Part shown: positions 1,754-63,816 of the stretch, piece after piece
Position numbering within the stretch: the stretch's first letter is position 1
Layout of the letters: each line of letters opens with the position of its first letter
NCBI GenBank assembly: GCA_918797485.1
Contig: CAKKNE010000002.1
Location: 2,694,501 to 2,758,500 of the forward strand
Length of the DNA stretch: 64,000 nt
Reading direction: 5' to 3'
DNA from: Pelagomonas calceolata
Taxonomy: Eukaryota > Sar > Pelagophyceae > Pelagomonadales > Pelagomonadaceae
The notes under the pieces: generated by a model
Seen by the model: the letters and a program-made list of their open reading frames with translations, nothing else
Told to the model about the DNA's origin: nothing
The model's database searches: none
Position numbers and translations under genes: made by a program

Positions 1754-2346
1754 CGTTGCGGCTGCCCTGGGGCTGCCTTAGCCCCAAGGACCAGCTCGGC
1801 GCGGCTGCGTCGAGCGCTGCAGCAACGGCTGCCCCGGCTCGTCCGCGAGCTTGCCGATGCGTGCGAGGGCGCCCGGGCAGTGCCAACCCTGCCTTAGCGT
1901 GCCCTTTTGCCGGCTTTCAGCCGCTCGGCGCTGGGCCTAGCCTGTAAGTCAGTAGTTAGCCTTCCTCGTCCTGAGCAGGTCCCGCGGTTCCCGCGGGCCC
2001 GGTAGGGTGGCGCGGGCATGCGGTGGCCGGCGTGTTTTATGCCCTCGAGGCTCGAGGGATGGGCCCTGGCCTCTGGCATGGGCAGCCCGGTCCCTCCTGG
2101 GAAAGCTTCTAGTACAAAGGCTGCTAAGCTTCCGGCCGTTCGTCAAAGGTCGCGTAAAGCCCCCGCAGTGCCCCAAGAGCCCAAGCCCTCCGACTGCTGC
2201 TTCCTAGTGTCTTACAGTGCTAGGTAATAGCTGCTCTTTGCTCTAGCTCTTGCTGATATACGAAGCCTAGTAGCTCCAAGTATCGATAAAACCCATTTGT
2301 GTAACACATTTCTGGTGCAGTTCACGTCTGCAGCAACTGAGAGCGA
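1754..2346. other. Intergenic region, divergent promoter
   Basis: No convincing ORF is seen. The stretch lies between the dynein gene (leftward) and the rightward ORF that follows. It holds one copy of the recurring CTAG palindrome at 2203-2224 and an AT-richer part after 2220. Nothing else is recognisable. Confidence 0.5.
2203..2224 (+). promoter_or_regulatory. CTAG palindromic promoter element, copy 1
   Basis: Reads CCTAGTGTCTTACAG then TGCTAGG, with half-sites CCTAG/CTAGG facing each other. It matches the GCTAGTGTCTTAC core shared with copies at 19983 and 47761. It lies about 450 bp upstream of the dynein start, farther than most copies. Confidence 0.5.
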
Positions 2347-2841
2347 TTGCTTGCAACAAGCAATAGCATCACGAGTGCTGCAGCCTTCAGAGGCGACGGG
2401 AAATACATTGGAGACGGCGGTGGGGCGCTGCAGACACTGCGGTGCTACTGCGAGTGGAAAGAAATTCGAAACTGCCCGGGCCGCTACACCGTAAGACGGC
2501 GGCGCGACCTCGCGCGCTGGCCGCCGGAACGCCTGCTCGCCGCGGCACTAGGCGCAGCCGCACCGCAAACCAGCCTCTGGCGCCACAGTAGCAGTACAAG
2601 TGACGCAATCCACGCCGTGCGTTTCGCGGGCGGCGGCGGCCTCCTCACGTATGCGCGCGCGGACGGTACGTTCATTCATACGTTCAACACGGAGAGCGGC
2701 CTCCTGCGCAAGATTGCTGCGCTGCGCGTGACGCCGGAGGTGCCTCAGCGTGCGCGCTGCGTGCTCGGCGTCCTTGCGTTCCTCGACGACCGCGACCAGA
2801 ACGCGTCCGCCTATGCCCTCGTAAGGCGGTTTGATGGATGA
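2347..2841 (+). CDS. Unassigned protein, overlaps the JmjC gene start
   Basis: This frame is open for about 165 codons but has no in-frame ATG; the first codon is TTG. The N-terminus must therefore lie in an upstream exon, or the coding part begins after an internal AG (for example the CTGCAG near 2433). The sequence looks like real protein: CYCEWKEIRNCPGRYTVR, then FAGGGGLLTYARADGTFIHT, then ESGLLRKIAALRV. I do not recognise the family. The stop overlaps the next ORF's start (ATGGATGA). A GTAAGG donor-like site at 2821 lies just before the stop and could splice it differently. Boundaries are uncertain. Confidence 0.4.
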   Translation: MLATSNSITSAAAFRGDGKYIGDGGGALQTLRCYCEWKEIRNCPGRYTVRRRRDLARWPPERLLAAALGAAAPQTSLWRHSSSTSDAIHAVRFAGGGGLLTYARADGTFIHTFNTESGLLRKIAALRVTPEVPQRARCVLGVLAFLDDRDQNASAYALVRRFDG

Positions 2842-4684
2842 GGCGAGCCTCGCACAATTCCGCGCGGCGACGGCGCCGAGCCGCCGCGTCGCGAATTTGC
2901 GCCACGTCCGCGATTGCGTCATCAAGCGCGACGCGGACCCGTACTTAAGACCCGCGGAGGTCCTCGCGTTGCTCGAGCCGGAGCGGCTGGGCGCCATCGA
3001 ACTTTATGCTGCGGAGGACCCGGAGCCGCAGATACGTAAAAGTAGAACGATCCCGCGCATCAAGACGATCGAGTTCCGCTCATACATGGACCGCAACGAG
3101 CCGTGCCTGATCGAAGGTATTGGGAGGGACTGGGGTCTGCGGGAGTACGTCACGGAAGGCGTACCGGACCTCGCCAAACTCGCGGAAACGTACGGTAGGG
3201 TCCAGGTGCCGGTCCAGGACGCCGGCGTGGCGAAGATGATGCCGTTGTCACAGTTCGCCCGGGTCTGGCGCGAGAAGATTGCTGAAGGCCGGCGCTACTA
3301 TCTTAAGGACTGGCACTTCCGCCTGGACGGCCTCGGTCATTTGGCGCCCGTTCCTGAAATCTTCGCGGACGACTGGCTGAGCGGGGCCCGCGACATGGAC
3401 TACCATTTCGTGTATCTCGGCGCCGCGGGCACGCGTACGAAGCTGCACTGCGACGTCGTCAACAGCTTCTCGTGGTCGGCGAACGTCTGCGGTTCCAAGC
3501 GCTGGCGGTTCTTACCCGCGGCCGAGACCTCTTTGCTACGGGACGTGTTCGGCGAGGACGTCGCGTCGAGCTTCGGGCCGTCGTCTTCAGAATATCCGCG
3601 GCGTGGGAAAGCACGACCGATCGAGGTCGTGCAGCAGCCCGGGGAAGCCATTTTCGTGCCTTCGGGCTGGTACCACGACGTGGAGAACCTAAACGACTGC
3701 CTCTCCGTGAACTGCAACTGGGCGAACGCCTCGAACTTGTTGTGGTGCGGACCGCGCCTCGTCGACGAAGCAAACGCGGCGCCGGGCGAGGTCTCGACCT
3801 CCCATTTCCTGCGGCGCGTCGCCGCGCGCGCCGCGTCCACACAAAGCCCGCGCGACCTCGCCGCGGCGGCGGCGGCAGCGCGCGCGCTGGAGGGGCGCGA
3901 GGGCGACGCGGCGGTCGCGCTCGCCGCCGCGGCCGACGCGCGGCGCGCGGCGCTCGTCGACTCGGACTCGGACTCCGGCGAGGACTTCCTCGGCCGCGTC
4001 GGCGCGGACTTGTTCGAGGACGATGAAACGCCGCGGCGGCGGCCTACGCGGCGCGGCTGGACGCCGGGCTTCCACGACGTGGTGGACCGCGGCGTGACTA
4101 GCTTTGAGGCTGATGTGGGTGGGCGTAGAGTGTGTTGCCGCTTGGGCTACCGCGAGAGCGGCACCGGGTCTAGTGTTTGGGACGGCGCCGTCGTCCTGGC
4201 GCGCTTTCTGGAAACGCACCCGTCCCTCGTCCGCGGCAAGCGGGTCCTCGAGCTAGGCGCGGGCACGGGCTTTGGCGGGCTCTGCGCGGCGGCGCTCGGC
4301 GCTTCAAATGTGACGCTGACGGACATTGAAGCGTGCCTGCCGCTGCTGCGGGAGAACGCCGCGGGCGTCGACGGGGTGGTCGTTGAGGCGCTCGACTGGA
4401 CCGAGCCCGTAGCCCCGTCGCAGCGCGCGGACGTCCTTCTCGCGGCGGACTGCCTGCTCCCGGGCCGCGAGGGCCTCTTCGCGCCGCTCGCGACGACGCT
4501 CGCGGCGCTGCTCGCCGGGGACGCCGTCGCGTACTTCGTCTACGAACAGCGCTGCATGGACTGTGGGCCCTTCTTCGAGCTGCTGCGCGGCGCCGGCGTC
4601 GCTGTATCCTGTATTCCGGACGACGACCTGCATCCGGAGTACCGAGCTCCCGAGATACGGGTGCTCGAGCTGCGACGAACCTAA
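2834..4684 (+). CDS. JmjC (cupin-8) oxygenase fused to a METTL21-like methyltransferase
   Basis: This is a single exon of 616 aa starting at ATGGATGAGG; an in-frame TAA at 2822 blocks any further N-terminal extension. Residues about 85-320 form a JmjC/cupin-8 domain of the JMJD4/JMJD6 type. It has the iron motif LHCD (H205, D207), the partner His in SGWYHD (H281) and the strand NVCGSKRWRF. A low-complexity Ala/Arg and acidic linker follows. Residues about 425-616 form a class I methyltransferase of the METTL21/FAM86 protein-lysine type: SAM loop VLELGAGTGFGGL (475-487), acidic post-motif LTDIEACLPLL and AADCLLPG. A 2-oxoglutarate oxygenase acts on a protein or RNA side chain, while METTL21-type enzymes methylate lysines. 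One polypeptide carrying both suggests coupled modification of one substrate. The substrate is unknown. Domain calls are firm; the joint role is inference. Confidence 0.85.
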   Translation: MDEASLAQFRAATAPSRRVANLRHVRDCVIKRDADPYLRPAEVLALLEPERLGAIELYAAEDPEPQIRKSRTIPRIKTIEFRSYMDRNEPCLIEGIGRDWGLREYVTEGVPDLAKLAETYGRVQVPVQDAGVAKMMPLSQFARVWREKIAEGRRYYLKDWHFRLDGLGHLAPVPEIFADDWLSGARDMDYHFVYLGAAGTRTKLHCDVVNSFSWSANVCGSKRWRFLPAAETSLLRDVFGEDVASSFGPSSSEYPRRGKARPIEVVQQPGEAIFVPSGWYHDVENLNDCLSVNCNWANASNLLWCGPRLVDEANAAPGEVSTSHFLRRVAARAASTQSPRDLAAAAAAARALEGREGDAAVALAAAADARRAALVDSDSDSGEDFLGRVGADLFEDDETPRRRPTRRGWTPGFHDVVDRGVTSFEADVGGRRVCCRLGYRESGTGSSVWDGAVVLARFLETHPSLVRGKRVLELGAGTGFGGLCAAALGASNVTLTDIEACLPLLRENAAGVDGVVVEALDWTEPVAPSQRADVLLAADCLLPGREGLFAPLATTLAALLAGDAVAYFVYEQRCMDCGPFFELLRGAGVAVSCIPDDDLHPEYRAPEIRVLELRRT

Positions 4685-4836
4685 CTTGAATGTTGAAAAT
4701 CATTATATACACTACTACTACGAATTTCAAAGCCGCGAGAGCACGAATGCGATGGCGCCGGCGTGTACGGCGGACACACATACGCACACGCGTCGACGTC
4801 GACGGCGTCAGCGCCAGCCTCGCACGAGAGAGGTGC

Positions 4837-6246: not shown

Positions 6247-6452
6247 ATCTTAGCGTTGAGGCTTCGGGTGTCTGAAGCTTGACGCTTGAGAGAGTGGTTG
6301 TACAGAGGGTTGTTGTTGGCCGCCTTTTTACCGCACCGCTCAGCGTGAAAGTTGGCACACGGCGGCGGAGAGGTTCAGAGGCGCGTGTCGACTCGTCAGG
6401 GAAACGTCTGGGCGCTCCGCGCCGACGATTTCACCGCTGCAGCAAAACCAAC

Positions 6453-6474
6453 CTAGCGTCGCGTAAGACACTAG
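6453..6474 (+). promoter_or_regulatory. CTAG palindromic promoter element, copy 2
   Basis: CTAGCGTC, two bases, then GTAAGACACTAG. It sits midway in the 394-bp divergent gap, about 206 bp from the aminotransferase start and about 167 bp from the DoxX-like start. Confidence 0.65.
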
Positions 6475-6640
6475 CCCAAAATGCTCTCCGACCCCTAAGT
6501 TGTTGAACAGCTCACTGTCACGTGCATTTGGAATTGCCTACGTTGCTCGTACGGACTCCTACGAACACCGGCGCAAGACCTCTCTGTATTTCGCATCTAC
6601 ACGTTTGCTTCCAAGCACTGATACCCACTGTGAATCAGCA

Positions 6641-7201: not shown

Positions 7202-7281
7202 GCCCGGACGAGCGGTCGAGCAACCCCTTCTCCCGCGCGCCGAGAACCCAGATGTATATATATTCAGTACAAGTAGAGATC

Positions 7282-7301
7282 GCTAGTCCGGAAACGGCTA
7301 G
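7282..7301 (+). promoter_or_regulatory. Possible short CTAG element
   Basis: GCTAGTCC, four bases, then AACGGCTAG, about 97 bp upstream of the ATG at 7398. Half-sites are kept but the GTAAGACA core is absent, so this is a weak member. Confidence 0.3.
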
Positions 7302-7397
7302 ATTTGTGTTATGTGCCTTTCCGCCTTGGGACGAGCCCGCATATTGCCGCAACAAGACAGCCGTGCCGCGAAAAACACACTTCTCGCACCGAGCACC

Positions 7398-11220: not shown

Positions 11221-11268
11221 GGTTGCCCTCTCTGTGTTTGTGAGTGCACTGATGCCTCACTAGCGTCT

Positions 11269-11292
11269 CTAGTGTGTCAATGGGACGCTAGC
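11269..11292 (+). promoter_or_regulatory. CTAG palindromic promoter element, copy 3
   Basis: CTAGTGTGTC, six bases, then GACGCTAGC. It lies 49 bp upstream of the ATG of the TIC62-like gene on the minus strand. An extra CACTAGCGTC half-site abuts it on the left. Confidence 0.6.
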
Positions 11293-12011: not shown

Positions 12012-12161
12012 GTTTTGTGGTCCAGAGAGCAGGCTCCAGTGCGGTTCAAATTTGGCACAGCGCTGCGCGAACCGTCAGAGCTTACACACAGCGTGTCCAC
12101 GCGTTCATGCTGTACGCTAGGCCAGCCATATCATGCCGATAATGGTCCACAAGCCGGAATT

Positions 12162-12185
12162 CTAGTGTGTCAAAGACGCGCTAGC
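12162..12185 (+). promoter_or_regulatory. CTAG palindromic promoter element, copy 4
   Basis: CTAGTGTGTC, seven bases, then CGCTAGC. It is 151 bp upstream of the minus-strand start at 12011. Confidence 0.65.
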
Positions 12186-19982: not shown

Positions 19983-20006
19983 GCTAGTGTCTTACAGACC
20001 GCTAGC
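19983..20006 (+). promoter_or_regulatory. CTAG palindromic promoter element, copy 5
   Basis: GCTAGTGTCTTACAG, two bases, then CGCTAGC, one of the best-conserved copies. It lies 142 bp from the EEP start on the left and 98 bp from the ATG at 20104 on the right. Confidence 0.7.
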
Positions 20007-21054: not shown

Positions 21055-21095
21055 AGGTCGAGGTAAGGAGTGTTCGTGCAGGAGGACGGACAAGA

Positions 21096-21110
21096 GTTAC
21101 GGTGCTAGGA
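21096..21110 (+). promoter_or_regulatory. GTTACGGTGCTAGGA motif, upstream of a CTAG element
   Basis: The same 15-mer, allowing one change, occurs twice on the minus strand upstream of the gene starting at 34578. In both places it sits farther from the gene than the CTAG palindrome and in the same orientation relative to transcription. Confidence 0.45.
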
Positions 21111-21127
21111 CTAGTGGGAGCCCTTTA

Positions 21128-21149
21128 GCTAGCGTCGTCGCACACTAGG
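21128..21149 (+). promoter_or_regulatory. CTAG palindromic promoter element, copy 6
   Basis: GCTAGCGTC, four bases, then GCACACTAGG, about 156 bp upstream of the RNA polymerase start. Confidence 0.5.
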
Positions 21150-25573: not shown

Positions 25574-25822
25574 CGTTTTTTGCCGTGTGCAGTGTGCCTC
25601 GCCGGCGTCAAATGGAGAGCGTTGAGGAGCGATACGCTTAGCACTGATGCGTGTGCTGCGCAGTGACTTTGATGCAGTGTGGCGCACAGGCGTGGAAACG
25701 ATCCGCGTGGAGCAGCGATACGCGCCGCAGTGATGCGGCTGACACGCCTTGCTTGTGCTTGCGTCTGTGTTGCCTCACAGCTGCTCTTTTTGATGTTGAT
25801 GTCGCGCTGGTCGAATTATTAT

Positions 25823-25846
25823 CTAGCGGCAAGTAAAGACACTAGG
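25823..25846 (+). promoter_or_regulatory. CTAG palindromic promoter element, copy 7
   Basis: CTAGCGGC, three bases, then TAAAGACACTAGG, about 250 bp upstream of the minus-strand start at 25573. Confidence 0.5.
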
Positions 25847-34806: not shown

Positions 34807-34826
34807 GCTAGCTGCAAGGCACTAGC
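34807..34826 (+). promoter_or_regulatory. Short CTAG palindromic element, copy 8
   Basis: GCTAGCTG then CAAGGCACTAGC, 20 bp, 229 bp upstream of the PWWP start (minus strand). It has shorter spacing than most copies but the same half-sites. Confidence 0.45.
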
Positions 34827-34877
34827 GAACGCGACGTAACTAGCCTCAGCCCTCAGGAACCTCCCAGGGGCTCCGCC

Positions 34878-34960
34878 CACTCCTAGCACCGTAACAATAA
34901 GAGATTACGCGACGGAACCAGGGAGCCTGAGCCCGACGACTCCCAGCACCGTAACAATAG
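34878..34960 (-). repeat. Twice-repeated CTCCYAGCACCGTAAC motif
   Basis: ACTCCTAGCACCGTAACAAT (ending about 34898) and ACTCCCAGCACCGTAACAAT (ending about 34958) are spaced exactly 60 bp. The reverse complement, GTTACGGTGCTAGGA, recurs upstream of the RNA polymerase at 21096. Confidence 0.6.
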
Positions 34961-36864: not shown

Positions 36865-37384
36865 GGCCTGCGCGGATGATGTGCGGACCGTATACTTCGC
36901 TGCCGCGTTGACTCGTCGCGGGGAAACCTGAGCGGCCCGGCCCCCGCGGCGTCGCGCCGGGGGGCGGTCGGTGGCTCTCGGGAAACCTGCTCGCGCGCGC
37001 CGCGCCGGTAAGCCGCGGCGGCGCTGGAATTCTTATTTTTTGGCCCCTTTGATTTGAGTTGGCGCTGGACCGCACCGATGCGCAACTCCTGTGAGAGCAG
37101 GTGGCACAGCTGTACACTTGTGCACGGGTAGCCGCGGTATTTGTCGTAGCAGTGGCTCCGTATGCAATATTCCGCTATATTTAGCGAGCGAGGAGCACAG
37201 ATTACTGCAAGACGCGCGTGTTTGGCCGCTGGCTACCCCTGAAGCTAGCGTCCGGTAAGACACTAGGCATCCCATGGCAGCCGCAAGTAAGCAAGCAAAC
37301 AGCACGCTAGGCTGCGATTGCAAGCCTAGAAGCTGGCGGGGACAGTGCATATATAGTGCAGATACCGGCCAGTGCATCGGAAGC
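36865..37384. other. Divergent intergenic region
   Basis: The left half is very GC-rich, the right half AT-richer with CAATATTCCGCTATATTT near 37162 and a CTAG palindrome at 37244. It is the likely promoter for the lumenal mini-protein. Confidence 0.45.
37244..37267 (+). promoter_or_regulatory. CTAG palindromic promoter element, copy 9
   Basis: GCTAGCGTC, two bases, then GGTAAGACACTAGG, 118 bp upstream of the ATG at 37385. A close match to the consensus. Confidence 0.7.
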
Positions 37385-37675: not shown

Positions 37676-37992
37676 GTCGGCGCGTCGTCGGTCGGTCGCG
37701 CGTCGTGGACGCGCGAGACGGCGCTCCGGCGCCGCGCGATGAGCGCTCGAGTAAGAACTATTCATGTCTCAATGGACCGCTCTTTCCTAGTGAGCCTGGA
37801 TACCACCAGGCGGCGTCGACCGCTGGCCGCTAGCGTACTGTAAGGCACTAGCAAGCCGGGCAGGCTGGCGTTCGGCAGCTTTTTGCAGGCGTCTGAGACT
37901 CACCGATCAAAATCGACGTACAGGCAGCATCCATGCGCCATGCAACTGCAAAATCCAATGATTCGGGCTGCCCTGGCTGCTCACAATAACAC
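37676..37992. other. Intergenic gap
   Basis: Contains one CTAG palindrome (37829-37852) serving the next plus-strand gene. Nothing else was found. Confidence 0.4.
37829..37852 (+). promoter_or_regulatory. CTAG palindromic promoter element, copy 10
   Basis: GCTAGCGTAC, then TGTAAGGCACTAGC, 141 bp upstream of the ATG at 37993. One mismatch in the GTAAGACA core. Confidence 0.7.
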
Positions 37993-43953: not shown

Positions 43954-43977
43954 GCTAGCGTAACGAGACGCTCTAGG
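43954..43977 (+). promoter_or_regulatory. CTAG palindromic promoter element, copy 11 (diverged)
   Basis: GCTAGCGTAAC then GAGACGCTCTAGG. Half-sites are kept, the core altered. 72 bp from the minus-strand start at 43882 and 136 bp from the ATG at 44113. Confidence 0.45.
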
Positions 43978-46399: not shown

Positions 46400-46423
46400 G
46401 CTAGCGGAGTGTAAGACACTAGC
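46400..46423 (+). promoter_or_regulatory. CTAG palindromic promoter element, copy 12
   Basis: GCTAGCGGAG then TGTAAGACACTAGC. It sits between divergent starts: 65 bp to the ankyrin gene, 161 bp to VAMP7. Confidence 0.75.
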
Positions 46424-47760: not shown

Positions 47761-47784
47761 GCTAGTGTCTTACAGAACGCTAGC
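47761..47784 (+). promoter_or_regulatory. CTAG palindromic promoter element, copy 13
   Basis: GCTAGTGTCTTACAG, two bases, then CGCTAGC. 155 bp upstream of the giant channel gene and 237 bp from the ShKT start. Differs from copy 5 at one central base. Confidence 0.75.
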
Positions 47785-47938: not shown

Positions 47939-50900
47939 ATGGGTGCAAGCGACGTCGAAAAAGCGACGACCGCAAACAGAAAGGGCTGGCTCCACGTCCA
48001 GGACGAGGACAGCCCCGCCCAGGTCCTCTGGCACGCCGCTCTGCTCGCAGCGACGCTCTGGAGCTGCGCGCGCGCGCCCCTGATCGACGGGCCCTCTTCG
48101 GATGGAGCGTTCGACGTACTTGCCGACCTCGTTTTTGTGGGAGAGGTCTTCGTCCAGTTCCTGTTCCCGCTCTACGACGGCGAGAGCCGCGAGCTCGTCG
48201 ACGACGTGCGGCAGATCCGCGACCGCTACCTCCACTCGCGGCGGTTCTACGTTAACATAGTGTTGGCGCTGCCAGTCTGCTCCAGCCACATCAAGCCGCT
48301 CGCGCGCGCCACGGCCGTCGTCCGGTCGCTGCGCGCCGCGAAGTGCAAGCCGACCTTATTATCATTACGCGGCACCCTCCAGCGCGTCCGCGACGTCGCC
48401 GTGGCGGTCGAGCTCGTGGAGTTGGCGACAGTCCTGCTCTACGCGACGCTGTTGACGTTGGTGCTCGCGGGCGCGCGCTGGGCGCCGCGGCTGCCCTACG
48501 ACGCCAGGAACCTCGTGCTGACGATTATGGTCGTCACGTTATCTTTAGCGCTCCACGCCGTGGCCTTCGCGAACCTCCAGTCCGCGAACGACGCCATGAA
48601 CGTGGTAGAAGCGCACCACGACAAACAAACAAAACCAGTCCTGCAATTCCTCGACGAATCAAATGTCGACGACGACACTCAGTTACGTGTCCGCGCGCAT
48701 TTCGACTACCTGATGGTGAAGCAGGGCGGCCTGGCCGACGACCGGATCCTGGCCGAGCTGCCCGCTTCCTTAGTACGGCGCGTCCGGGACCAGAACCGGT
48801 CGCTGCTCGTGAAGGTGCCGTTCTTTTCTCCAGCGAGTCGCCCCCCAAAATTCCTCGACGCGGTCGTCGACGCGCTTTCCACGAGAATCTTCCTGCCGAA
48901 CCAGTGGCTCGTCGAGCCCTACTCGACCAAAAGGGAGCTCTTCGTCCTCCGCGAGGGCGTCGCGATTGTAATAAGCGGGCGCCAGACCGTCGCGACCTTG
49001 ACGCGGGGCGACGTCGTCGGCGACTGGGGGTGCATCCTCGGGGGACGAGCCACCCTGGGCGTCCGCGCGGGGCCGCAGTCCTTCGTCGAAGCGCTGGCGT
49101 TGGACCACGCGACGCTCTCGAGAATCATCGCCGCGTGCAAGCCGCACCCCGACGACGCGTTCCGGGCGGCCGTCGCCGAGAAGCGGGACCGGGCCCTCGC
49201 CAAGGCGAAAATAGCGCTGGCGTTCCGGAAGAAGCAGGGCGAGTCGACGGAGGCGGACGGAGGCGGCGGAGGCAACGGAGGCCAAGTCGTCGGGGCCAAG
49301 ACGCCGGGGCCAAGGCGGCCGGGGCAAGGCGCCGAGGCCAAGGCGACGGAGGCGACGACGGCCGCGCCGACGCCAAAGCGTCGAAGCAAGGACGAGCCGG
49401 TGTCGCTGCTCGACGAGAATGACCCGGGCGTCGTCGCAACGAAGGCGCGTCGGGACGAAGGGTTGGAACGGTGGCGGGACGCGGGGCCGGCGAAGAAAGT
49501 ACTCCCGTCGACCTCGTACCGGCCGACGCAGCGCGTCGTGCTGCCGGACTCGACGGGGCGCTTCGCCTGGGACTGCTTGCTGGTGCTGCTGCTCGCCTAC
49601 GCCTGCGTCCGCCCGCAGCTGCGATTGCTCGGCAACAGGGACGCCTTCGACGCGTCGCTGATCGCGGACTATGTGTGCGACCTGCTCTTCGCTTGTGATT
49701 TGGTCCTGCGCCTGTGGTTCTTCGGCGTCCACGTGGAAGAGGACGGCCGCGAGGTGCTGGTCGTGGACCGCCGGGAGATCTTCCATCAGCACGTCACGTC
49801 GAAGCGGTTCTGGATCGACGCTGTATCAACCATACCGTTCGACCTGCTGGGCTTCGTGAACGGGCGCTGGTGGCGCGTCCTGCGGCTGCCGCACGTCGCG
49901 CGGATCCTGAACCTCGATTCCTATATAAGGACGCCGTTGACGTTCGTCGAAGAGCATCTTGAAGTCGATATGGACGCGAGGACGGTGCCCGTCGCGGTCC
50001 AGCTCGGCCAGCTCGCTTTCACCATAGTGACGGTGGCGTGCGTGCGTGGGATGCGAGGGAATGATGATGAGGCCTTTCCGCAACTCGCGCACGGCGCGCT
50101 CCGGGACCTGATGACCGTGGACTACGTGACGATCAAGGAGGCCGCCGTGGCGAAGCGCCACGTCGACCTCGTTTTGTCGGTGGGCCTCGTGGCCTTCTTC
50201 GCCACGCTCGTCTCGCGCGGCGCGTTACTCCTGAGACGCGCGGACCTCACGGACCGGAGCCCGGGCCACGCGCGGCGCGTCTGCGAGGCGTTTCTGGCGA
50301 GCCATCATGCGTCGGTCGCCCTCAGGACGCGCATCGACGCGTACCTCGCCCACCTTGAGTCGTCGGGCGACGGCGCGCGGTCGCTCGCCGCGCTGCCGCC
50401 CGATCTGAGGAATGATGTCGAGGCCTCGCTGCTGAAGCCGGCCTTCGACGCGTCGCCGCTCCTACGGGACCTCGACGGCCGCTTCCGGGCGCAGCTCGCC
50501 GCGGCGGCCGAGCGCCACGTCTACGCGGCGGGCGATGTCCTCTCCAATAATGAGGGGGCCTTCTACCTCAAGGCGGGCGCCGTGGAGATTTTTCGGGGCG
50601 AGGACGTGGTCACGCGGCTCGGCCCGCGCGACGGCTTCGGCGAGGACGCGCTGCTGGACGCGGTGCCAGCGACCTACGGCGCGCGCGCCGAGAGTATCGT
50701 CGAGGCGTGGCACCTGCCCCGGCGGCGCTTCCTGGAGCTGCTTCGCCAGTACCCGGCCATCCGCGAGCGCCGCGACGAGCTCCGGTCGAAGCCGGCGCGC
50801 TTCGAAACCGTGGCGCCTCGCAGAGCTCAAATCGTCCGGAACTCGTCGCGCCTCAGGCGGTTGGTGCGGCGGACGACGGCGCGGAACCGGGCCCTCTCCC

Positions 50901-53900
50901 TCGGGACGCGCGACGACGTCCCGGCGCGCGACGCCGCGCAGACGCGCGCGGGCCACGCCTGGAACGTGGCCGCGCTTTCGTTTGTGCTATTCAACGTCAT
51001 GAAAGTGCCCTTCGACGCGGCCTTCCGCGAGGGCCATTCGTTACGGTGGCTCGACTGGCTGCCGTACTACGCGGGCGACGTGCTCCTGGCCATCGACGCC
51101 TTAGTCTGGCACTCGCACGGCGTCGGCGCCGCCTCGAAGGGCGCTCTTTTAGCTACCGTGCCCTTCGACGTGTTCGCGCTCGCGATCACAGACAAAAACC
51201 TCGGCGCGGTGCAGCGCGTCGCGCTGTGCCGCCTGCCGAAGCTTTTACGAGTGCTGGACCTCCCGTCGCTCGCCCGCGCGTGCGCGAACGCGGCCGAGGC
51301 GTTCCTGAAATGCCGCCTCTCCAACAACGCGCGGTCGCTGGCCGCGCTCGCCGGCGGCTACGCGCTCACGGCGCACCTCTGCGCCGTCGGCTTCTTCTGG
51401 TGCGCGAACTCGATCCATCTCCGGGGCGGCGAGTCGTGGGCCGGCGCCGCGGGCTTCCTGCGGGCCTGCTCGCGCGGCGGGGTTGGTGGGTGCGACGTCG
51501 TCGTCGACGTCGCCCCGAACCCGAAATATTTGGACGTCGCCGGCCGCGCGTTTGAGAAGCGGGCCTGGTCGATGAATAGCGCCCTCGACGCCTACGTCGC
51601 GGCGCTGCTCTGGGCCTTTGGAACATTGACGGCGCGCGACCAGCCGTTCGCCGCGACGAGCGGCCGCGAGGTGGCGTTCGCGAGCGGCGCGCTCGGCGCG
51701 GCGATCGTCGTCTTCGCGGTCGTCGTCGCGACGCTCGAGGACGCGGCGTCGGCGGCGGGCCTGTCGCGGTCGCTTTTTTTACGGCGCCTCGAGCGCGCGA
51801 CGCGCTACTGCGACCACCAGCAGCTGCCCGTGGCGCTGCGGCGGAAGTTCCTCGGGGCCTACGACCGGCTCTGGGCCGCGCAGCGCGGCGCGAGCGGCGG
51901 CGACGCCTTAGCGAGGCTGCCGGATAATCTGAGGCGGGACTTCGTCGTGGACGTGGCGCCGCACCTCTCTCATTTATTTTACGTCCGAGCGCTCGGCCAG
52001 GCGGACCTCATCCATGAACTCGCGGCGCGCGTGTCCTTGGAACACTACGCGCGCGGCGACGTTTTATTTGGAGCGGGCGAGCGGGCCGACGCGGCCTTCT
52101 GCGTGACGAGTGGCGTGGTCGACGTCCTGGGGAGCGGCGACGGGTTGTTGCTCGGCCGCTTCTCGACGCAAGTCGTCCTCGGCGAGGGCGAGTTCATCGA
52201 AAGGGCGTTGTATGCCGCGTCGGCGCGGTGCGTGCGGTCGACGCGGTGCGTGCTGCTGACGCACGACGCCTTCCTCGAAGCTCTGAGACGGACGGACCAG
52301 ACCGGGGCGTACCGAGAAAAGGTGCTGGCGACGGCCGGCGAGATTCCGCAACTGCGCACGGACGCGCGCGCGGCCGCCGCGGGCGAAGCGGTCCGGAAGA
52401 CCGCGCCAGAGCGCCCATCGGCGCGCTTCTGGGAGCAGGCGCGGCTCGTCGCGAACGCGGGAGGTCTGCTCTGGTTCGCCACCACCGTGCCGTTCCTCGT
52501 TACGTTTGCTTCGAGCGCCGCGGGGCTCCCCGTGGGCGTCGTCGTCGCCGATGGGTTATTCCTCGCTTTGATGGCGTTTGATTTGTACCTCGATGACGAC
52601 GCGATGATGGTCGACTTCGCGAGCGTCGCGCCCCTCGGGCTGCTGGCCCACGCCTGCCGCTTGGATCGATCCGTGTGCGCGTCACTACGTACGCTGCATT
52701 TGATCATGCTGCGCCGCGGCGCCGAGCGCGTCGATGCCGTGCTCAAGTTTCTGGCCGAGGAGAAGCGCATTCGATGGTTGGGGGCCGCTGGCGCGGGCGC
52801 GGCCGCGCGTTTGTTGATCGTCTTCTGCCTCGCGATCCACTGGGTGGCCTGCTTGTGGTACGGCCTCGCGCGAATCCAGGAAAGGTCCTGGGTCGACGCT
52901 TACCGAAGGCGCGGCGTTTTGAGTTATGACATGAAGACCGGTTCAAATGGAGATAGACGTTTCTGGTATAGGGCCGCCCTCACGTGGGCCTTCTCGACGA
53001 TAACGTCCTTCGGCGACGGCGGCGCCGACGCCACGAATCCCCTCGAGCGGGCCTTCCAGATTTTGGTCATGGCCGCCGGCGTCCTGCTGTGCGACGTGAA
53101 CGTGCTTGCTGTGTTAGCCTCGATCGTGGAATTGAACGCGTTGCAGCGCCACCGGAACTTGCGACGGACGATTTGCGCGCGGAGGTTCATGGGGCGCCTG
53201 AATTTGAAACCGGAACTGAGGAAGAACGTGCTCGACTACTTCGACTACGTCGACGAGAACAAGAACTTGGACGAGGCTTTACTACTCAAGGAGGTGGGCC
53301 GGTCGTGCCGCGAGGACGTATTAAGGCACTTCGCGTTCCGGAAGCTGTGCGATTCGATCAAGTTCGGGGCCTTCCAGGAGGGCGTCGTTGCGTCTCTCGT
53401 AAGAAGCATGGCGCCGCGGACGGCGGCGCCGGGCGAGATCATACTCGAGGGGAACGACGACGCCTACTACGTGCTGCGGGCGGGCCGCGCGCACACCGTC
53501 GATGCGTGCGGTCATTCAGAGCCGGTGTCGACGGGCGCGTTGCTGGCCCAGTCCGAGTTCGTGGCGGCGGCGAAGCGCGTCGGGCCCTGCACGCGATTGC
53601 TCGAGCTCGACGTCTACGAGGCGGTCATATCGAGGGCGGGCACGACGCACCCCTACGTCCGGTGCGTGACGGAGACCGTGACGCCCTTCGGCGTGTCTGT
53701 CAAAAGAGTCGAGTCGGGCGTCCGGAAGTACACGAAGCGTCCCCACTTCGACGAGCGTTTCGAGCTCAAGGTGTACGCGAATACGACGTGCTGCGTCCAC
53801 GTGCTCCACCACCGGCGCGGCCTCGACGGTATTACCATAGGGCGCGTCGAGCTGCGGCTCAGCGAAGGCGCGCCGCGGTGGCACACGATACTCGATGGCA

Positions 53901-54463
53901 GGAACCGGCCGGCGGGCCGCGTGCGCCTCGCCGCGCGGACGTCGGCGCTTCCCCCGTCCCGAGTCGCGGCGAGCGCCGAGGTGACCGTCGTCGCCGACAC
54001 GTTCTGCCACCTCTACGTCCTCGCCGCGGCGGCGCAGGAGGATTTGCGGCGCTACATGCGCGCGATGCGCCTGCCGCTCGCGAAGCGCCTGCCCGCGGAC
54101 GCGCGCGCCGACGTCGCCATGAAGCGCGACCGCGCCCTCGCCAAGGCGCGAAACGTCGCCGCGGCCATCCGGCCCCTTGCTTCGGCGCCGGCCTCTCCGG
54201 TCGAGGCGCCGGCTCCGGCGGGCGACGTCGAGGCGCCGCCTCCGAGTGAGGAGGCCCCGCGGCCGTCGAGCCGCGCGCGGCCCGCGACGCGCGGCGCGCT
54301 CCGGGCGACGCTCCGGGCCGGATCGGCGCGGTCGACGCCCTCTTTCTCGCGATCGGTTCGGCGCGCCACGCAGCGCGGGCAGCCGGCGACGCCGTTCTCG
54401 CGGGTGGCGCGCGTGGCGCCCGCCGCCATCTTTGAGGAGGGAGACGAGGACGAGGCGGTGTGA
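47939..54463 (+). CDS. Giant four-module cyclic-nucleotide-binding ion channel with C2-like tail
   Basis: 2174 aa in one exon from MGASDVEKATTANRKGW. Four HCN/CNG-type units (S1-S6, C-linker, CNBD) lie in tandem, at residues about 25-400, 540-960, 1000-1470 and 1495-1910. S4-like basic helices are visible (WWRVLRLPHVARILN in unit 2). Filter-like loops exist only in unit 3 (LLWAFGTLTARDQPF) and unit 4 (LTWAFSTITSFGDGGAD); units 1 and 2 have none recognisable. Unit 2 keeps the best cNMP cassette (GFGEDALLDAVPATYGARAES), while that of unit 4 is degraded. A C2-like domain follows (about 1930-2020), then a Pro/Arg-rich end. The layout recalls the single-chain CNGK channels of sea urchin sperm. Ion selectivity cannot be read. 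Confidence 0.85.
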   Translation: MGASDVEKATTANRKGWLHVQDEDSPAQVLWHAALLAATLWSCARAPLIDGPSSDGAFDVLADLVFVGEVFVQFLFPLYDGESRELVDDVRQIRDRYLHSRRFYVNIVLALPVCSSHIKPLARATAVVRSLRAAKCKPTLLSLRGTLQRVRDVAVAVELVELATVLLYATLLTLVLAGARWAPRLPYDARNLVLTIMVVTLSLALHAVAFANLQSANDAMNVVEAHHDKQTKPVLQFLDESNVDDDTQLRVRAHFDYLMVKQGGLADDRILAELPASLVRRVRDQNRSLLVKVPFFSPASRPPKFLDAVVDALSTRIFLPNQWLVEPYSTKRELFVLREGVAIVISGRQTVATLTRGDVVGDWGCILGGRATLGVRAGPQSFVEALALDHATLSRIIAACKPHPDDAFRAAVAEKRDRALAKAKIALAFRKKQGESTEADGGGGGNGGQVVGAKTPGPRRPGQGAEAKATEATTAAPTPKRRSKDEPVSLLDENDPGVVATKARRDEGLERWRDAGPAKKVLPSTSYRPTQRVVLPDSTGRFAWDCLLVLLLAYACVRPQLRLLGNRDAFDASLIADYVCDLLFACDLVLRLWFFGVHVEEDGREVLVVDRREIFHQHVTSKRFWIDAVSTIPFDLLGFVNGRWWRVLRLPHVARILNLDSYIRTPLTFVEEHLEVDMDARTVPVAVQLGQLAFTIVTVACVRGMRGNDDEAFPQLAHGALRDLMTVDYVTIKEAAVAKRHVDLVLSVGLVAFFATLVSRGALLLRRADLTDRSPGHARRVCEAFLASHHASVALRTRIDAYLAHLESSGDGARSLAALPPDLRNDVEASLLKPAFDASPLLRDLDGRFRAQLAAAAERHVYAAGDVLSNNEGAFYLKAGAVEIFRGEDVVTRLGPRDGFGEDALLDAVPATYGARAESIVEAWHLPRRRFLELLRQYPAIRERRDELRSKPARFETVAPRRAQIVRNSSRLRRLVRRTTARNRALSLGTRDDVPARDAAQTRAGHAWNVAALSFVLFNVMKVPFDAAFREGHSLRWLDWLPYYAGDVLLAIDALVWHSHGVGAASKGALLATVPFDVFALAITDKNLGAVQRVALCRLPKLLRVLDLPSLARACANAAEAFLKCRLSNNARSLAALAGGYALTAHLCAVGFFWCANSIHLRGGESWAGAAGFLRACSRGGVGGCDVVVDVAPNPKYLDVAGRAFEKRAWSMNSALDAYVAALLWAFGTLTARDQPFAATSGREVAFASGALGAAIVVFAVVVATLEDAASAAGLSRSLFLRRLERATRYCDHQQLPVALRRKFLGAYDRLWAAQRGASGGDALARLPDNLRRDFVVDVAPHLSHLFYVRALGQADLIHELAARVSLEHYARGDVLFGAGERADAAFCVTSGVVDVLGSGDGLLLGRFSTQVVLGEGEFIERALYAASARCVRSTRCVLLTHDAFLEALRRTDQTGAYREKVLATAGEIPQLRTDARAAAAGEAVRKTAPERPSARFWEQARLVANAGGLLWFATTVPFLVTFASSAAGLPVGVVVADGLFLALMAFDLYLDDDAMMVDFASVAPLGLLAHACRLDRSVCASLRTLHLIMLRRGAERVDAVLKFLAEEKRIRWLGAAGAGAAARLLIVFCLAIHWVACLWYGLARIQERSWVDAYRRRGVLSYDMKTGSNGDRRFWYRAALTWAFSTITSFGDGGADATNPLERAFQILVMAAGVLLCDVNVLAVLASIVELNALQRHRNLRRTICARRFMGRLNLKPELRKNVLDYFDYVDENKNLDEALLLKEVGRSCREDVLRHFAFRKLCDSIKFGAFQEGVVASLVRSMAPRTAAPGEIILEGNDDAYYVLRAGRAHTVDACGHSEPVSTGALLAQSEFVAAAKRVGPCTRLLELDVYEAVISRAGTTHPYVRCVTETVTPFGVSVKRVESGVRKYTKRPHFDERFELKVYANTTCCVHVLHHRRGLDGITIGRVELRLSEGAPRWHTILDGRNRPAGRVRLAARTSALPPSRVAASAEVTVVADTFCHLYVLAAAAQEDLRRYMRAMRLPLAKRLPADARADVAMKRDRALAKARNVAAAIRPLASAPASPVEAPAPAGDVEAPPPSEEAPRPSSRARPATRGALRATLRAGSARSTPSFSRSVRRATQRGQPATPFSRVARVAPAAIFEEGDEDEAV

Positions 54464-54546: not shown

Positions 54547-54568
54547 GCTAGCGGTGTAAGATACTAGC
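54547..54568 (+). promoter_or_regulatory. CTAG palindromic promoter element, copy 14
   Basis: GCTAGCGG then TGTAAGATACTAGC, 22 bp, 264 bp upstream of the ATG at 54832 and 84 bp after the channel stop. Confidence 0.65.
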
Positions 54569-59705: not shown

Positions 59706-60962
59706 TTAGTTCAGCGACCCGCGGCACGTCGCCGCGCCGCAGTGGCACGGGATCTTCTCGTCCTCGAGCTCGAACTTGTAGTCGTAGGACAGCTCCTCGC
59801 CCGCCTCTATATCTCTCTTCGTGTAGAGCACGATCTTCTTCCGCCCCGCGTGGGGCACGATCTTGGAGACGCAGTTCGGCGCGCACGAGTGGTTCACGAA
59901 CCGCGCGAGCGAGCCCATGCGCGTCGCGTCCACTATAAGCTGGTCGTCGACGCGGAATAAATAATCAATCTCGCCGTTGCGCTCGTACATCTCCTGGCGC
60001 CGCTCGCCAACCTGCAGGCCGATCTCCTCGCCGCGATACTCGAGCACTTGCGTCCCCTGGACGATGGGCTCGTCCGTAAACACGCCCCACGAGTGGATCG
60101 GCGACCGCGCAAACCTCAGTCGCAGCCGCCGCGTCTCGGCGTAGACGCCGCCGTTCAGGGGGTCGGCCGCGTCGCCGACGCCGTGCCTTGCTAATGCTCG
60201 GCGCTCGCTGCGGAACGCGCGGCCTCGGGCCGCCGATTGCTTCTTGGCGTCGTCCTGGGGCGACTCCCGCTTCGGTGGTGGTGGTGGTGCTGCTGGGGCC
60301 TCCTCGCGGCGGCGGCGCGCCTTCCGGCCCTTCTTTTTTTTTGCGGTCTCTTGCTTCGTCTGGCGCGGGCGGCACCGCGCGCAGGGCTGCCACGGCTCCT
60401 CGCGCGCTGCGAGTGGTTTCACGGGGCTCCCCGGCAGCGACCGCGCGGCGGGCGGCGGCGTGCGCGGCCGCGCGCGGACCTGCGCGCAGTGCGAGCACGC
60501 GCAGTCCTTGGCGTGGTCGTAGCGGTCGGTCTCGCCTATTTTAAATGTGACCTCGAGGGGAGGCCGCTCGTCCTCGTCATCCGGCGTTGCCGGCCGCGGC
60601 TTCTTCCTCGTCGACGGCTCCTCGGCGTCGGCGTCGTCGTCGTCCTCCTCCTGGTACGCTTCTTCCTCCTCCTTCTCGGGACGGGCCCCGCTCCGGGACC
60701 CGCTCCGAGAACCGCTCCGCCGAGACCCGCTCCGGGACCCGCTGCGCCGCCGCTTCGGCGGCGCCGGCGACCGCGAGCGGTGTGGCGACCGGCGGCGCGA
60801 CGACGGCGGGGCGTCGGGCGTGTACGCGTTCGTCTGCTGCCGCCGCCGGGCCGGCGGCGCCGACCACTCGGCCTGGAGGCGCCGCGCCATCTCCTCGTCG
60901 GTCTCCGCGGGCGCCGTCTGCTGCCTCTCGCGACCTCCGAACACCAGGTTGTTTAAATCCAT
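59706..60962 (-). CDS. SET1-like histone H3K4 methyltransferase (SET and post-SET)
   Basis: 418 aa from MDLNNLVFGGRERQQTAPAE; an in-frame Met 58 codons upstream is possible but would add a hydrophobic, non-nuclear segment overlapping promoter sequence. The N-terminal half is low-complexity with RS-type repeats (SGSRSGSRRSGSRSGSRSG), acidic runs and a Cys cluster (DCACSHC, PCARC). Residues about 275-418 are a SET domain: RFARSPIHSWGVFTDEPI, RNGEIDYLFRVDDQLIVDAT, SLARFVNHSCAPNC (SAM/knot), EELSYDYKF, and post-SET CHCGAATCRGSLN. The wording is that of SET1/MLL enzymes, although an nSET domain is not obvious. Confidence 0.85.
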   Translation of the reverse strand: MDLNNLVFGGRERQQTAPAETDEEMARRLQAEWSAPPARRRQQTNAYTPDAPPSSRRRSPHRSRSPAPPKRRRSGSRSGSRRSGSRSGSRSGARPEKEEEEAYQEEDDDDADAEEPSTRKKPRPATPDDEDERPPLEVTFKIGETDRYDHAKDCACSHCAQVRARPRTPPPAARSLPGSPVKPLAAREEPWQPCARCRPRQTKQETAKKKKGRKARRRREEAPAAPPPPPKRESPQDDAKKQSAARGRAFRSERRALARHGVGDAADPLNGGVYAETRRLRLRFARSPIHSWGVFTDEPIVQGTQVLEYRGEEIGLQVGERRQEMYERNGEIDYLFRVDDQLIVDATRMGSLARFVNHSCAPNCVSKIVPHAGRKKIVLYTKRDIEAGEELSYDYKFELEDEKIPCHCGAATCRGSLN

Positions 60963-61148
60963 GTCCGACAGCTTGTTTTTAGTTTCAAGCCTAGGGAGAG
61001 CCCTGGCTGGGTGAGCTGTGGGGAGCAAGGTCGGGCCGAAAAGGGTTGCGGCAGAATATATGACTACGGTGAGGAGATTACGAAACACAATGGCGTGACC
61101 GTCGATGCACTTAGCCCCTGGTTTAGCGCTTGCCAAGCCGTGAAAACT

Positions 61149-61170
61149 CTAGTGTCGGTGTGACGCTAGC
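61149..61170 (+). promoter_or_regulatory. CTAG palindromic promoter element, copy 15
   Basis: CTAGTGTC, five bases, then GACGCTAGC. Almost exactly centred between divergent starts: 187 bp to SET, 184 bp to the hydrolase. Confidence 0.65.
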
Positions 61171-61353
61171 TAAATCCAAGCTCAGGCCGGCCAGCGGCAT
61201 AAATGCAGAACAGGGGTGCTGCTGTTCTTAAATCGTCGCTGCGACACCCGTCAAGCAGCTACACTGCACGGCTGCGCGTGGCAAGCCCTGCGAGCTGATT
61301 GCAAGCGGGCAGTTTCAGGAGAGCAGAGCCCAGGGAGCACATATACAGCCACG

Positions 61354-62397
61354 ATGCGTTGCAGCCTCGTAGCGCTCGCACCAGTGGCCTCGGCGCTCAT
61401 GCAGTTCCGCGCACCCCTCGTCGCCGACGGCTACGCCGCGAAAACTGCTGGAGACGCGCTGTTGGTCTACCTGCCGGGCTTCGACGGCGCCAATCTAGCG
61501 CCCTTCCTCCAGTGGCCCGCGTTGCACGACGCGGGCTTCGACGTGCGCTGCGCGAGCATCGACGAGGATGACAGGAGCACGTTCGACGAGCTAGTAAAGG
61601 CGGCCTCGTCCTATATCGACCGGGAAGCGTGCGACAGGCCCTGCCTGTTGGTCGGCGAGTCCTTTGGAGGCGCCCTCGCGACGGTCGTGGCGCAGCGCAC
61701 CTCGAATGTGGAGGGCGTGGTCCTCGTGAACCCGGCGACGTGCTACGCGGAGTCGGCCCTCGCGTCGAAGGCACCGCCCATCCTGGAGCTGCCGGCCTGG
61801 GCCTACTACGTCGGCCTCGCCTCGTTGCTGCCGCTCTTCGTCGACCGGCACGGCGTCCGCGCGCTGTTCGACATCGTCACGAACAAGCGCCTGCCGTGCG
61901 TCATCGAGACCCCGCGCCAGGAGGCCTACATGGGTCGTGTGGCATTATCCCTACCGGAGCGGATCGCGCGCATGCCGCGCGGGACGCTCGCGTGGCGCCT
62001 CCGGGAATGGCTCGACGTCGGGGCGAAGGTCGACGTCGGTGCTCTGAAACAACCTACACTAGTAGTCTTCGGCGACGAGGACAACACGTTGCCCTCGGAG
62101 CGCGAGGCGGCCCGCGTCGTCGCTTTACTCACGAAGGCACGAGCGGTCCGCGTGCCGGGCGCGGGCCACGCGGCGACGCTCGGGAGTCGCATCGACCTGC
62201 GAGCCGAGGTCGCGGCGTTCTTCGGGGCGGAGCCGGGGTTTTCTTTCCTGGCGGGTGCTCCCCGGAAGATGCGCGCCGACGCGTCGCAAGACGGCGAGGC
62301 GTCGTCGCTGTACGGCCTCTACCCGCGGACGCACGCGCCCGTGGCCGTCTTCGACTACTTCAACGCGGAGAACGACGCGCGCGTCGGCGTAAGGTAA
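61354..62397 (+). CDS. Plastid-type alpha/beta hydrolase (phytyl-ester-synthase-like)
   Basis: 347 aa with leader MRCSLVALAPVASALMQFRA. The alpha/beta fold is clear: LLVYLPGFDGANLAPFLQWP (oxyanion strand), CLLVGESFGGALATVVAQRT (nucleophile Ser in GESFGG), VVLVNPATCY, LVVFGDEDNTLPSEREA (acid) and GAGHAATLGSR (His). This combination resembles the esterase/lipase half of plant phytyl ester synthases. Whether it moves acyl groups or only hydrolyses is open. The stop codon overlaps a GTAAGG donor-like site. Convergent with the next gene, 11 bp between stops. Confidence 0.75.
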   Translation: MRCSLVALAPVASALMQFRAPLVADGYAAKTAGDALLVYLPGFDGANLAPFLQWPALHDAGFDVRCASIDEDDRSTFDELVKAASSYIDREACDRPCLLVGESFGGALATVVAQRTSNVEGVVLVNPATCYAESALASKAPPILELPAWAYYVGLASLLPLFVDRHGVRALFDIVTNKRLPCVIETPRQEAYMGRVALSLPERIARMPRGTLAWRLREWLDVGAKVDVGALKQPTLVVFGDEDNTLPSEREAARVVALLTKARAVRVPGAGHAATLGSRIDLRAEVAAFFGAEPGFSFLAGAPRKMRADASQDGEASSLYGLYPRTHAPVAVFDYFNAENDARVGVR

Positions 62398-62408
62398 CAG
62401 TTCAATTC

Positions 62409-63398
62409 TTACCCGAGCTCGGACGCCGACGAGTACGCCCGCGCCATTCGAGGCGCGGGCGCCGGCGCCGACAAAAGCGCCGACGAGTATGGCGCAGGCG
62501 CGGGCGCCATTTGAATGCGACCGTAGGCCTCGTCCTCGCGTTGTTGGAGCGCCGCCTCCTCGGCGGCCAGCGCGTGGCGCACCTGCCCCTGGAGCAGCTC
62601 GACGCCCGCGTCCGCGACGGCCGCTTTGACGCCGTCCGCGAGGAGCGGCTCGTTTTCTAGGCGGTCCCGTAATGAAACGCAGCGCCGCAATGCGTCGTCG
62701 AGCCGGCCCACCTGCAGGGCCGTGGCCCGCAACGATAAGTAGTGGTAGACCTCCAACGACGTCGACTTGGCCCCCAGCGCGCCGGCGAGGTGCCGCAGCG
62801 AGGCCGTCCTCAAGACGTGGGTCTCGCACGTCTCGCGCACGGCCCGCTCGGCGGCGGCCTTGCGGTCCCTTTCATATTGTGCCGCGACCTCCTCCAGCGC
62901 TTCGGGGGCCACGTCCGCCGCGAGCGCCTCGACGGCGTCGAGCGCGTCGTAGACGAGCTCGCTCTTCGCGTCGGCGAAGGCCTCCTCGACCATATTCGGC
63001 ATCTCCGCTTCGATGGCGTCGTAGATTGCCTCGTAGGCCATTTCACTACGCCTTTGCATGAGGTAGGCGTCCGCACGTTCTCTGATAAATTCCTCGACGA
63101 GGCCGGGCACCTGCTCCGATACTTCCTCGTCAATCAGGTCGTCGACGACGTCAGAGGTCATGTCCCGCGGCATCACCTCCGCCTGCACCTGCCGCACGGA
63201 CGTCATGCGCTCATCCAGGATCGCCGTCAGGGCGTCGTCGCGGAGCCATCCTCTCAAGTCCTCGACCGTCTCGTTGATTATACTGTTTACGACGCCCGGC
63301 AGGTACGGCTCCAATGCTTGGGCGAGCTTGGCTCGCGCGCGTGCGGCCCGGCGCTTGCCCGCGGGGGACAGGGGCTGGGCGTTCGACGGGCGCAGCAT
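62409..63398 (-). CDS. Unassigned all-helical acidic protein
   Basis: 329 aa from MLRPSNAQPLSPAGKRRAAR. Nearly the whole length is predicted helix with Val/Glu/Ala repeats such as VVDDLIDEEVSEQVPGLVEE then FIRERADAYL and AIYDAIEAEMPNMVEEAFAD. These read as repeated approximately 20-residue amphipathic units. The C-terminus is Ala/Pro-rich (PAPAPYSSALLSAPAPAPR). No known family; a scaffold or microtubule-associated role is possible. Confidence 0.6.
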   Translation of the reverse strand: MLRPSNAQPLSPAGKRRAARARAKLAQALEPYLPGVVNSIINETVEDLRGWLRDDALTAILDERMTSVRQVQAEVMPRDMTSDVVDDLIDEEVSEQVPGLVEEFIRERADAYLMQRRSEMAYEAIYDAIEAEMPNMVEEAFADAKSELVYDALDAVEALAADVAPEALEEVAAQYERDRKAAAERAVRETCETHVLRTASLRHLAGALGAKSTSLEVYHYLSLRATALQVGRLDDALRRCVSLRDRLENEPLLADGVKAAVADAGVELLQGQVRHALAAEEAALQQREDEAYGRIQMAPAPAPYSSALLSAPAPAPRMARAYSSASELG

Positions 63399-63816
63399 CG
63401 TGAGGTCTTAGGGCTGCCCAACTAGGCTGCCTCGTCCGGTTGCCTCAGGATCATGATTTTGAGCTATCAATGCGCCAATAACTGGTCACGCAGACCCCGC
63501 GGCGGTCGAGGTGGCTAGGCGGCCTAGCTCTAAGCAAAGCAACTGGTCGTCCAGGGCCCAGGCAGCCCTGTTTTGGCGCAGGCGCAAAACGAACCTGAAC
63601 CCGATTTTTTGTGCAAAGGCTGAATCACCGTCAGAGCTGTTTGAATTGAGCAGCATTCGTATATCTTGCCGGGGAGGGTTTTTACAGCTAGCGGCTGTAA
63701 GACACTAGGCATATCCCAGCCTGGCTTTGTGAGCAGCCTTTGTAGTCGAACGACTGGCTTTTGAGGCTTCGCTGATAACTGACGAATCGCCTGATAGCTG
63801 CGCTGCTGCAGGCGAC
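63399..63816. other. Intergenic region
   Basis: 418 bp with a CTAG palindrome at 63687. No supported ORF. Confidence 0.4.
63687..63709 (+). promoter_or_regulatory. CTAG palindromic promoter element, copy 16
   Basis: GCTAGCGGC then TGTAAGACACTAGG. 207 bp upstream of the ATG at 63916 and 289 bp from the helical-protein start at 63398. Confidence 0.7.

Follow-up and report, generated by a model that had tools for sequence, protein, structure and literature searches.

The 64,000-nucleotide stretch of Pelagomonas calceolata DNA analyzed here (contig CAKKNE010000002.1, positions 2,694,501 to 2,758,500; hereafter the window) harbors genes of unrelated kinds, between which a near-palindromic CTAG element of about 24 bases recurs. 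Matches to Pfam families were obtained for 15 of the 20 scanned frames, including aminotransferase, ATP:guanido phosphotransferase, NmrA, RNA polymerase, SET, synaptobrevin and metallophosphatase. This diversity agrees with the initial annotation of the window, which had described the neighboring genes as functionally unrelated and the element, for that reason, as something other than a pathway regulator. The GC content is 64.4% for the window and 63.6% for the C4 sample. For strain RCC100, PMC9481584 gives six nuclear contigs totalling 32.4 Mb, one contig each for the plastid and the mitochondrion, and a GC content of 63.6%.

The element was scored with a two-box weight matrix (GCTAGCG, 0-9 bases, GTAAGACACTAGC), which was refined from unambiguous copies and trained on the window sites, the adjoining 80 kb and 30 loci of chromosome 1. 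At a threshold of 11 bits the window contains 16 matrix sites. The initial annotation had listed 18, all of which were inspected; the 16 are all among them, while the positions 7282 and 16777 found no support. Both boxes equal the consensus (41.0 bits) at 19983..20006 (minus strand, 142/98 bp to the predicted start codons on either side), 46400..46423 (plus) and 47761..47784 (minus, 237/155 bp), each in a divergent gap. Sites with a 4-base spacer lie at 6452..6475 (plus, 37.0 bits, divergent gap, 206/166 bp) and, as a pair sharing one long divergent gap, at 37244..37267 (plus, 39.0 bits) and 37829..37852 (plus, 36.1 bits, 144 bp to the plus-strand start). A 3-base spacer is seen at 63687..63709 (plus, 37.3 bits, divergent gap, 289/240 bp), a 2-base spacer at 2203..2224 (minus, 28.0 bits, divergent gap) and 54547..54568 (plus, 35.3 bits, tandem gap), a 5-base spacer at 25822..25846 (plus, 25.1 bits, tandem gap) and no spacer at all in the short element at 34807..34826 (plus, 21.9 bits, tandem gap). 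The variant TTGACACACTAG occurs at 11268..11292 and 12161..12185 (both minus, 24.9 bits, tandem gaps) and the variant CGCACACTAG at 21128..21149 (plus, 21.6 bits, tandem gap), 11 bp past a CTAG sequence of the 3'-end type described below. Weak elements are located in divergent gaps at 43954..43977 (plus, 13.6 bits, 72/136 bp) and 61148..61170 (minus, 12.2 bits, 186/229 bp). Predicted coding exons of the window hold none of these sites, as had been noted from the sequence beforehand.

The consensus reads A-GCTAGCG-GCCT-GTAAGACACTAGC-AAGC. Among 37 sites of at least 14 bits in 224 kb of C2 and C4, the spacer measures 4, 3 or 2 bases in 13, 11 and 7 cases, respectively. The distance from CTAG to CTAG among 100 listed genomic cores is 22 in 54, 21 in 25, 20 in 13 and 23-25 in 8, and their right boxes end in AGACACTAG (62), ACACACTAG (20) or GGCACTAG (12). 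The register is mostly constant within the right box, and it is the distance to the left box that varies. Outward of -1 and +2, all flanking columns hold less than 0.25 bit.

Detection was controlled on reversed, uncomplemented sequence of 144 kb (window plus 80 kb), which yielded no matrix site at 8 bits or above against 29 in the real sequence, and one against 30 at 6 bits. The matrix was trained partly on the same sites on which it is tested. The strict core CTAGCG-N7..13-CACTAG, which needs no training, occurs 12 times in the window; 100 shuffles that preserve dinucleotides gave it 0.01 times on average and once at most.

Copies of the element are distributed over the entire genome (32,445,274 bases in eight contigs). 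The right-hand sequence GTAAGACACTAGS was found 1056 and 1068 times on the two strands, 2,124 copies in total, and the extended pattern GCTAGYGN{3,8}GTAAGACACTAGS 742 and 741 times; the reversed controls gave zero for both. For the strict core CTAGCG-N8..13-CACTAG we counted 3,990 copies against 23 in the reversed control. The 224 kb contain 41 matrix sites (27 and 14, against 0 and 1 in the reversed controls); scaled up from this 0.7% of the sequence, the genome would hold about 5,900. Viral contigs were scanned as well and gave no match. The masked sequence of the upstream gaps, 34,302 bases, contained 108 CTAG, near a rough composition estimate of about 114, so no weaker residual copies were apparent in it; nor did these gaps reveal a second word of similar strength, the best being ACCGCT (47 vs 24.7) and AGCGAT (31 vs 14.4).

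The two halves of the element are not equivalent. The mixed form CTAGCG..CACTAG occurs 3,990 times, compared to 120 for the T/T form CTAGTG..CACTAG and 37 for the C/C form CTAGCG..CGCTAG (reversed controls 23, 8 and 47), and 9 of 50 listed T/T sites are copies of a different repeat. A free choice of C or T at the sixth base of each half would predict about 2073:1079:996. The element is therefore a pseudo-palindrome whose halves are kept different, with a near-obligate C in one and T in the other. As its binder, a plain symmetric homodimer is thereby disfavored. The near-palindrome described in the initial annotation is real, but the position left there as a free pyrimidine nearly always differs between the two halves.

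Gene positions were obtained with a purpose-built finder, which combines coding and non-coding Markov chains with start, stop and GT-AG rules and was self-trained on the sequence. It predicted 125 genes in the 224 kb, and all distances refer to its predicted start codons. The 41 sites fall into divergent gaps in 29 cases and tandem gaps in 9; none is in a convergent gap, and coding sequence, a called intron and an edge account for one each. Thus 38 of the 41 lie in gaps upstream of predicted genes, often between divergent starts, as had been anticipated. Coding sequence holds a single site (13.6 bits) against 32.1 expected by length, so that the element does not occur equally inside genes. Counted by gap (those below 10 bp excluded), the element is present in 28 of 46 gaps between divergent genes, in 9 of 30 between tandem genes and in none of the 44 convergent gaps. 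The p value is 9e-10 for upstream-type against convergent gaps and 0.011 for divergent against tandem gaps. In the 27 divergent gaps with a single site, its mean distance from the nearer predicted start is 0.357 of the gap length compared to 0.266 for random placement (p = 0.0004). Distances to the two start codons of divergent pairs have medians of 174 and 201 bp, with extremes of 35 and 965 bp.

A wider set of 78 sites of at least 14 bits, which includes loci picked for strong sites, comprises 45 in divergent gaps, 20 in tandem gaps, 7 at edges, 5 in introns, 1 in a convergent gap and 0 in coding sequence. Of the five intron cases, three follow a first exon of 5, 13 or 18 bp, a fourth lies in a 966 bp intron, and the fifth is the site at locus L030. 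In the 41-site set, the single called-intron site follows a first exon of 13 bp, where the first gene model had a tandem gap, and the intron is likely a gene-model error. With 1 of 41 and 5 of 78 sites in called introns, we rejected an introner element as an explanation.

The direction of the element relative to the predicted genes is free. In 20 tandem gaps it points toward the gene 11 times and away 9 times (p = 0.82), 26 of the 45 divergent gaps have the right box on the side closer to a start (p = 0.37), and the nearest start is on the right-box side in 37 versus 28 of the 65 sites with an assigned start (13 of the 78 have none). The initial annotation had held that the GTAAGACA half is usually directed toward the gene and had recommended a check for strand bias; that check reveals no significant bias, and the claim is dropped. 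The lack of a significant orientation bias speaks for an action at the level of DNA and against one at the level of RNA. A core promoter element such as TATA or the initiator should keep a fixed orientation relative to the gene, which 11 versus 9 does not show.

Gene strands alternate strongly in the 224 kb. Only 31 of 123 neighboring pairs are tandem compared to 61.5 expected for random strands (p = 3e-8), so that the genes are arranged in divergent pairs. The median gap length is 63 bp between convergent and 419 bp between divergent genes. The element fits this layout, as it occupies the shared gap in 28 of the 46 divergent pairs.

A scan of prokaryote genomes with the strict pattern returned six loci, in contigs filed as Spirochaeta MED672 and in bins named after ERR599032 and ERR599052. 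By a rough estimate, 257 billion bases could yield about six chance matches to a pattern of 18 fixed bases; taken by themselves, the matches are therefore no proof. The five loci retained are those whose main pieces match the P. calceolata genome at 82-96%; L060 (GC 0.43) was set aside as a chance match. L058 and L055 are collinear with chromosome 6 at 82-94% DNA identity, three main pieces of L057 match at 82-88%, L056 matches at 90-96% over 2043-3600, and L059 matches only at 3551-3889 (89%). We take the kept contigs to be mis-binned DNA of relatives or strains of the alga. L055, L057 and L058 belong to the metagenome-assembled genome (MAG) Spirochaeta sp. MED672, whereas L056 is CAJWEZ010000013.1 and L059 is CAJWOS010000634.1; L056 seems chimeric, its alga-like part at 2043-3600 adjoining genes that look bacterial when read by eye. 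The comparison is limited to these contigs and leaves out the core-bearing G001:C146 and C182.

Nine sites were compared (L058 461, 2198, 4290, 5352 and 7635; L055 7906; L056 2146; L059 3761; L057 1064), and the orthologous gap carries the element in eight. It is in place in both genomes at L058 2198, L058 4290, L057 1064, L056 2146 and L059 3761. At L055 7906 and L058 7635 (15.4 vs 39.0 bits) the same gap holds an element that is displaced or of very different strength and does not align. A small sample of three in-place pairs, in which the left flanks have diverged, shows the element conserved above its surroundings. At L058 2198, L058 4290 and L057 1064, site identity is 88, 95 and 96%, respectively; over 60 flanking bases it amounts to 43, 51 and 45% on the left and to 75, 72 and 60% on the right, compared to 50% for random 60-mers. 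The flanks of inverted or displaced pairs are non-orthologous bases and were excluded. Constraint combined with some drift in place and direction would be expected of a selected binding site.

Taken together, these data point to a general promoter-region binding site that is free in orientation, mainly bidirectional and spread across the genome, and we consider this prediction probable. Like the sites of general regulatory factors (GRFs), the element is situated upstream of functionally unrelated genes, avoids coding sequence, is placed in either orientation and is conserved above its surroundings. We infer that it is bound by protein. One sequence-specific complex would read the unlike half-sites GCTAGCG and GTAAGACACTAGC across a spacer of mostly 2-4 bases; such a binder would be asymmetric, either a heterodimer or a single chain in which a flexible linker joins two DNA-binding parts. 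Binding would open the chromatin of the intergenic gap and keep nucleosomes out, so that transcription could start on either side, driven or permitted by the complex, from core promoters within a few hundred bp. The mode would resemble that of the yeast general regulatory factors Reb1, Abf1 and Rap1 and would favor promoters that divergent genes share. More tentatively, and with less confidence than we place in the general reading, one dominant asymmetric pelagophyte factor, maybe with a new DNA-binding mode, could define about half of the gene-start gaps through this heteromorphic site of about 24 bp and organize the divergent pairs. If so, the strict C/T rule would not reflect a degenerate palindrome but would address the site to an ordered heteromeric complex. 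An element of this strength could serve as bait for a main promoter factor or as a part for gene tools, and it offers a test case of a nearly palindromic site that is strictly asymmetric, yet placed in either direction.

Several observations weigh against a promoter-region site. The element is not universal, being missing at 11 bits from 39 of 76 upstream-type gaps; a full-score site (L027) is in a gap modelled as convergent, and a weak site (L030), which may be genuine, is inside a predicted intron. All positions rest on start codons from our own gene finder. In the comparison, six of the nine sites were ascertained through the strict pattern match, the pairs of L056 and L059 are similar throughout (left flanks 88 and 92%, right flanks 89 and 90%) and hence little informative, the counterpart of L058 5352 is inverted at nearly the same place, and L058 461 has no counterpart in the orthologous gap. 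Separate gain is equally possible for the displaced and inverted cases. Over entire MAG bins, counts of the core do not exceed those of the control (9 vs 8, 1 vs 42 and 2 vs 7), as expected if few of the contigs are algal. In addition, some flanks are shared between copies in excess of chance, which slightly raises the odds of a mobile sequence and lowers those of a promoter-region site.

This last point concerns the alternative already raised in the initial annotation, namely a tiny mobile or copied palindrome accumulating where insertion is tolerated. The thousands of copies would suit such a sequence, as would the orthologous places with one inverted, two displaced or weak and one absent element. 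Right flanks agree in at least 10 of 13 bases in 7 of 2,926 pairs compared to 1.45 after column shuffling (largest 4), and left flanks in 3 of 3,003 compared to 0.6 (largest 2); the L057 site resembles other genomic copies over 30-71 bases, and a dispersed repeat of about 155 bp adjoins two of the relative's sites. However, target-site duplications of 5-9 bp are found in 0 of 77 sites, 4 bp flank matches number 2 against 0.32 expected (largest of 500 shuffles 3), and the flanks carry the little information noted above. None of the 44 convergent gaps has a copy, although insertion should be tolerated there, and three pairs were retained in place despite diverged left flanks. The alternative is weakened, and we regard it as improbable. 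An insulator or boundary is somewhat less implausible, albeit still unlikely in our judgement: a bound complex would separate neighbors or stop read-through by roadblock termination and not activate transcription. Its location between genes and the many upstream gaps that manage without the element are compatible with such a role, and so is a second CTAG sequence, TGTTACGGTGCTAGGACTAGTG, which in the 224 kb (at most 5 substitutions) lies 38-127 bp past a same-strand predicted stop codon in 7 of 7 cases; three of the four tandem gaps with this sequence also hold the element. Read-through should matter in convergent gaps too, yet these are devoid of the element, which is also rarer in tandem than in divergent gaps.

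Two further explanations appear remote. Eukaryotic promoter regions are commonly origin and recombination sites, so that a mark for replication origins, cohesin or recombination could coincide with open promoter regions; the thousands of copies exceed the number of active origins usual at this genome size, and such a mark seems very unlikely. We give hardly any weight to an RNA hairpin in 5' leaders that acts on translation or processing. The consensus in reverse direction does fold better as RNA (-10.4 vs -6.8 kcal/mol), but a hairpin should prefer one direction relative to the gene, which the tandem gaps do not show, and the sites are closer to the middle of divergent gaps than chance.

Among known systems, the yeast Abf1 site is composed of two boxes and a spacer, and animal palindromic promoter motifs of the NRF1 and ZBTB33/BANP type are abundant near the starts of widely expressed genes. 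The latter motifs are symmetric, whereas symmetric forms of the Pelagomonas element are rare. Sites of the yeast factors Reb1, Abf1 and Rap1 are likewise short and upstream of many unrelated genes, and these factors are also reported to limit divergent noncoding transcription (PMC9481977); the Pelagomonas element differs in sequence, in being strongest at divergent gaps and in its variable spacer. Pseudo-symmetrical bidirectional promoters of bacteria (PMC12825309) are similarly near-symmetric and tied to divergent transcription, but engage RNA polymerase directly, while the eukaryotic element has the median distances of 174 and 201 bp from predicted start codons. The introners reported in Pelagomonas (PMC9481584) and Aureococcus (PMC9860276) are also short dispersed repeats of the same lineage; they are introns, with a length peak of about 210 bp in Pelagomonas, and the element is an upstream sequence of about 24 bp. 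No site of the 41-site set was found inside an intron with repeat matches. A Pelagomonas promoter element of this sequence or kind was not found in the literature searched, with supplementary files and most subscription papers outside the search; part of that search is little informative, as the papers it returned make no mention of Pelagomonas. The text covered of PMC9481584, PMC13284251, PMC12054182 and PMC10087736 mentions neither motif nor promoter, that of the first three no palindrome, and GTAAGACACTAG was not found in motif-related literature among the matches listed.

The second CTAG sequence may be a 3'-end or termination element. Five of its seven cases are in tandem gaps. In the window it occurs at 21095-21116 (plus), 34875-34896 and 34935-34956 (both minus), and elsewhere at C2:2837608-2837629 (minus) and at three more places in L047-L054, the listed copies again having at most 5 substitutions. 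The sequence ACGGTGCTAGGACTAG is present genome-wide in 115 and 126 copies on the two strands (control 0). A dispersed repeat of about 155 bp starts with a sequence of the TGTTACGGTGCTAGGACTAGTG type and was found at no fewer than 39 genomic places with 80-88% identity. Its copies include L058:299-455, L062:3130-3285 and L011:2198-2353; one copy, next to the site L058 2198, is lacking from the orthologous position. A further recurrent sequence, CTAGTGAGTTTTGCGCCACTAG, has 6 of its 8 listed C1 copies between 2.72 and 3.01 Mb (G000:C1 2722326-3004774), a cluster that is possibly the low-GC centromere region described in PMC9481584. The gene models also contain very long single open frames, at 47939-54463 of the window (about 2,170 codons) and at C2:2801008-2814771 (about 4,590 codons).

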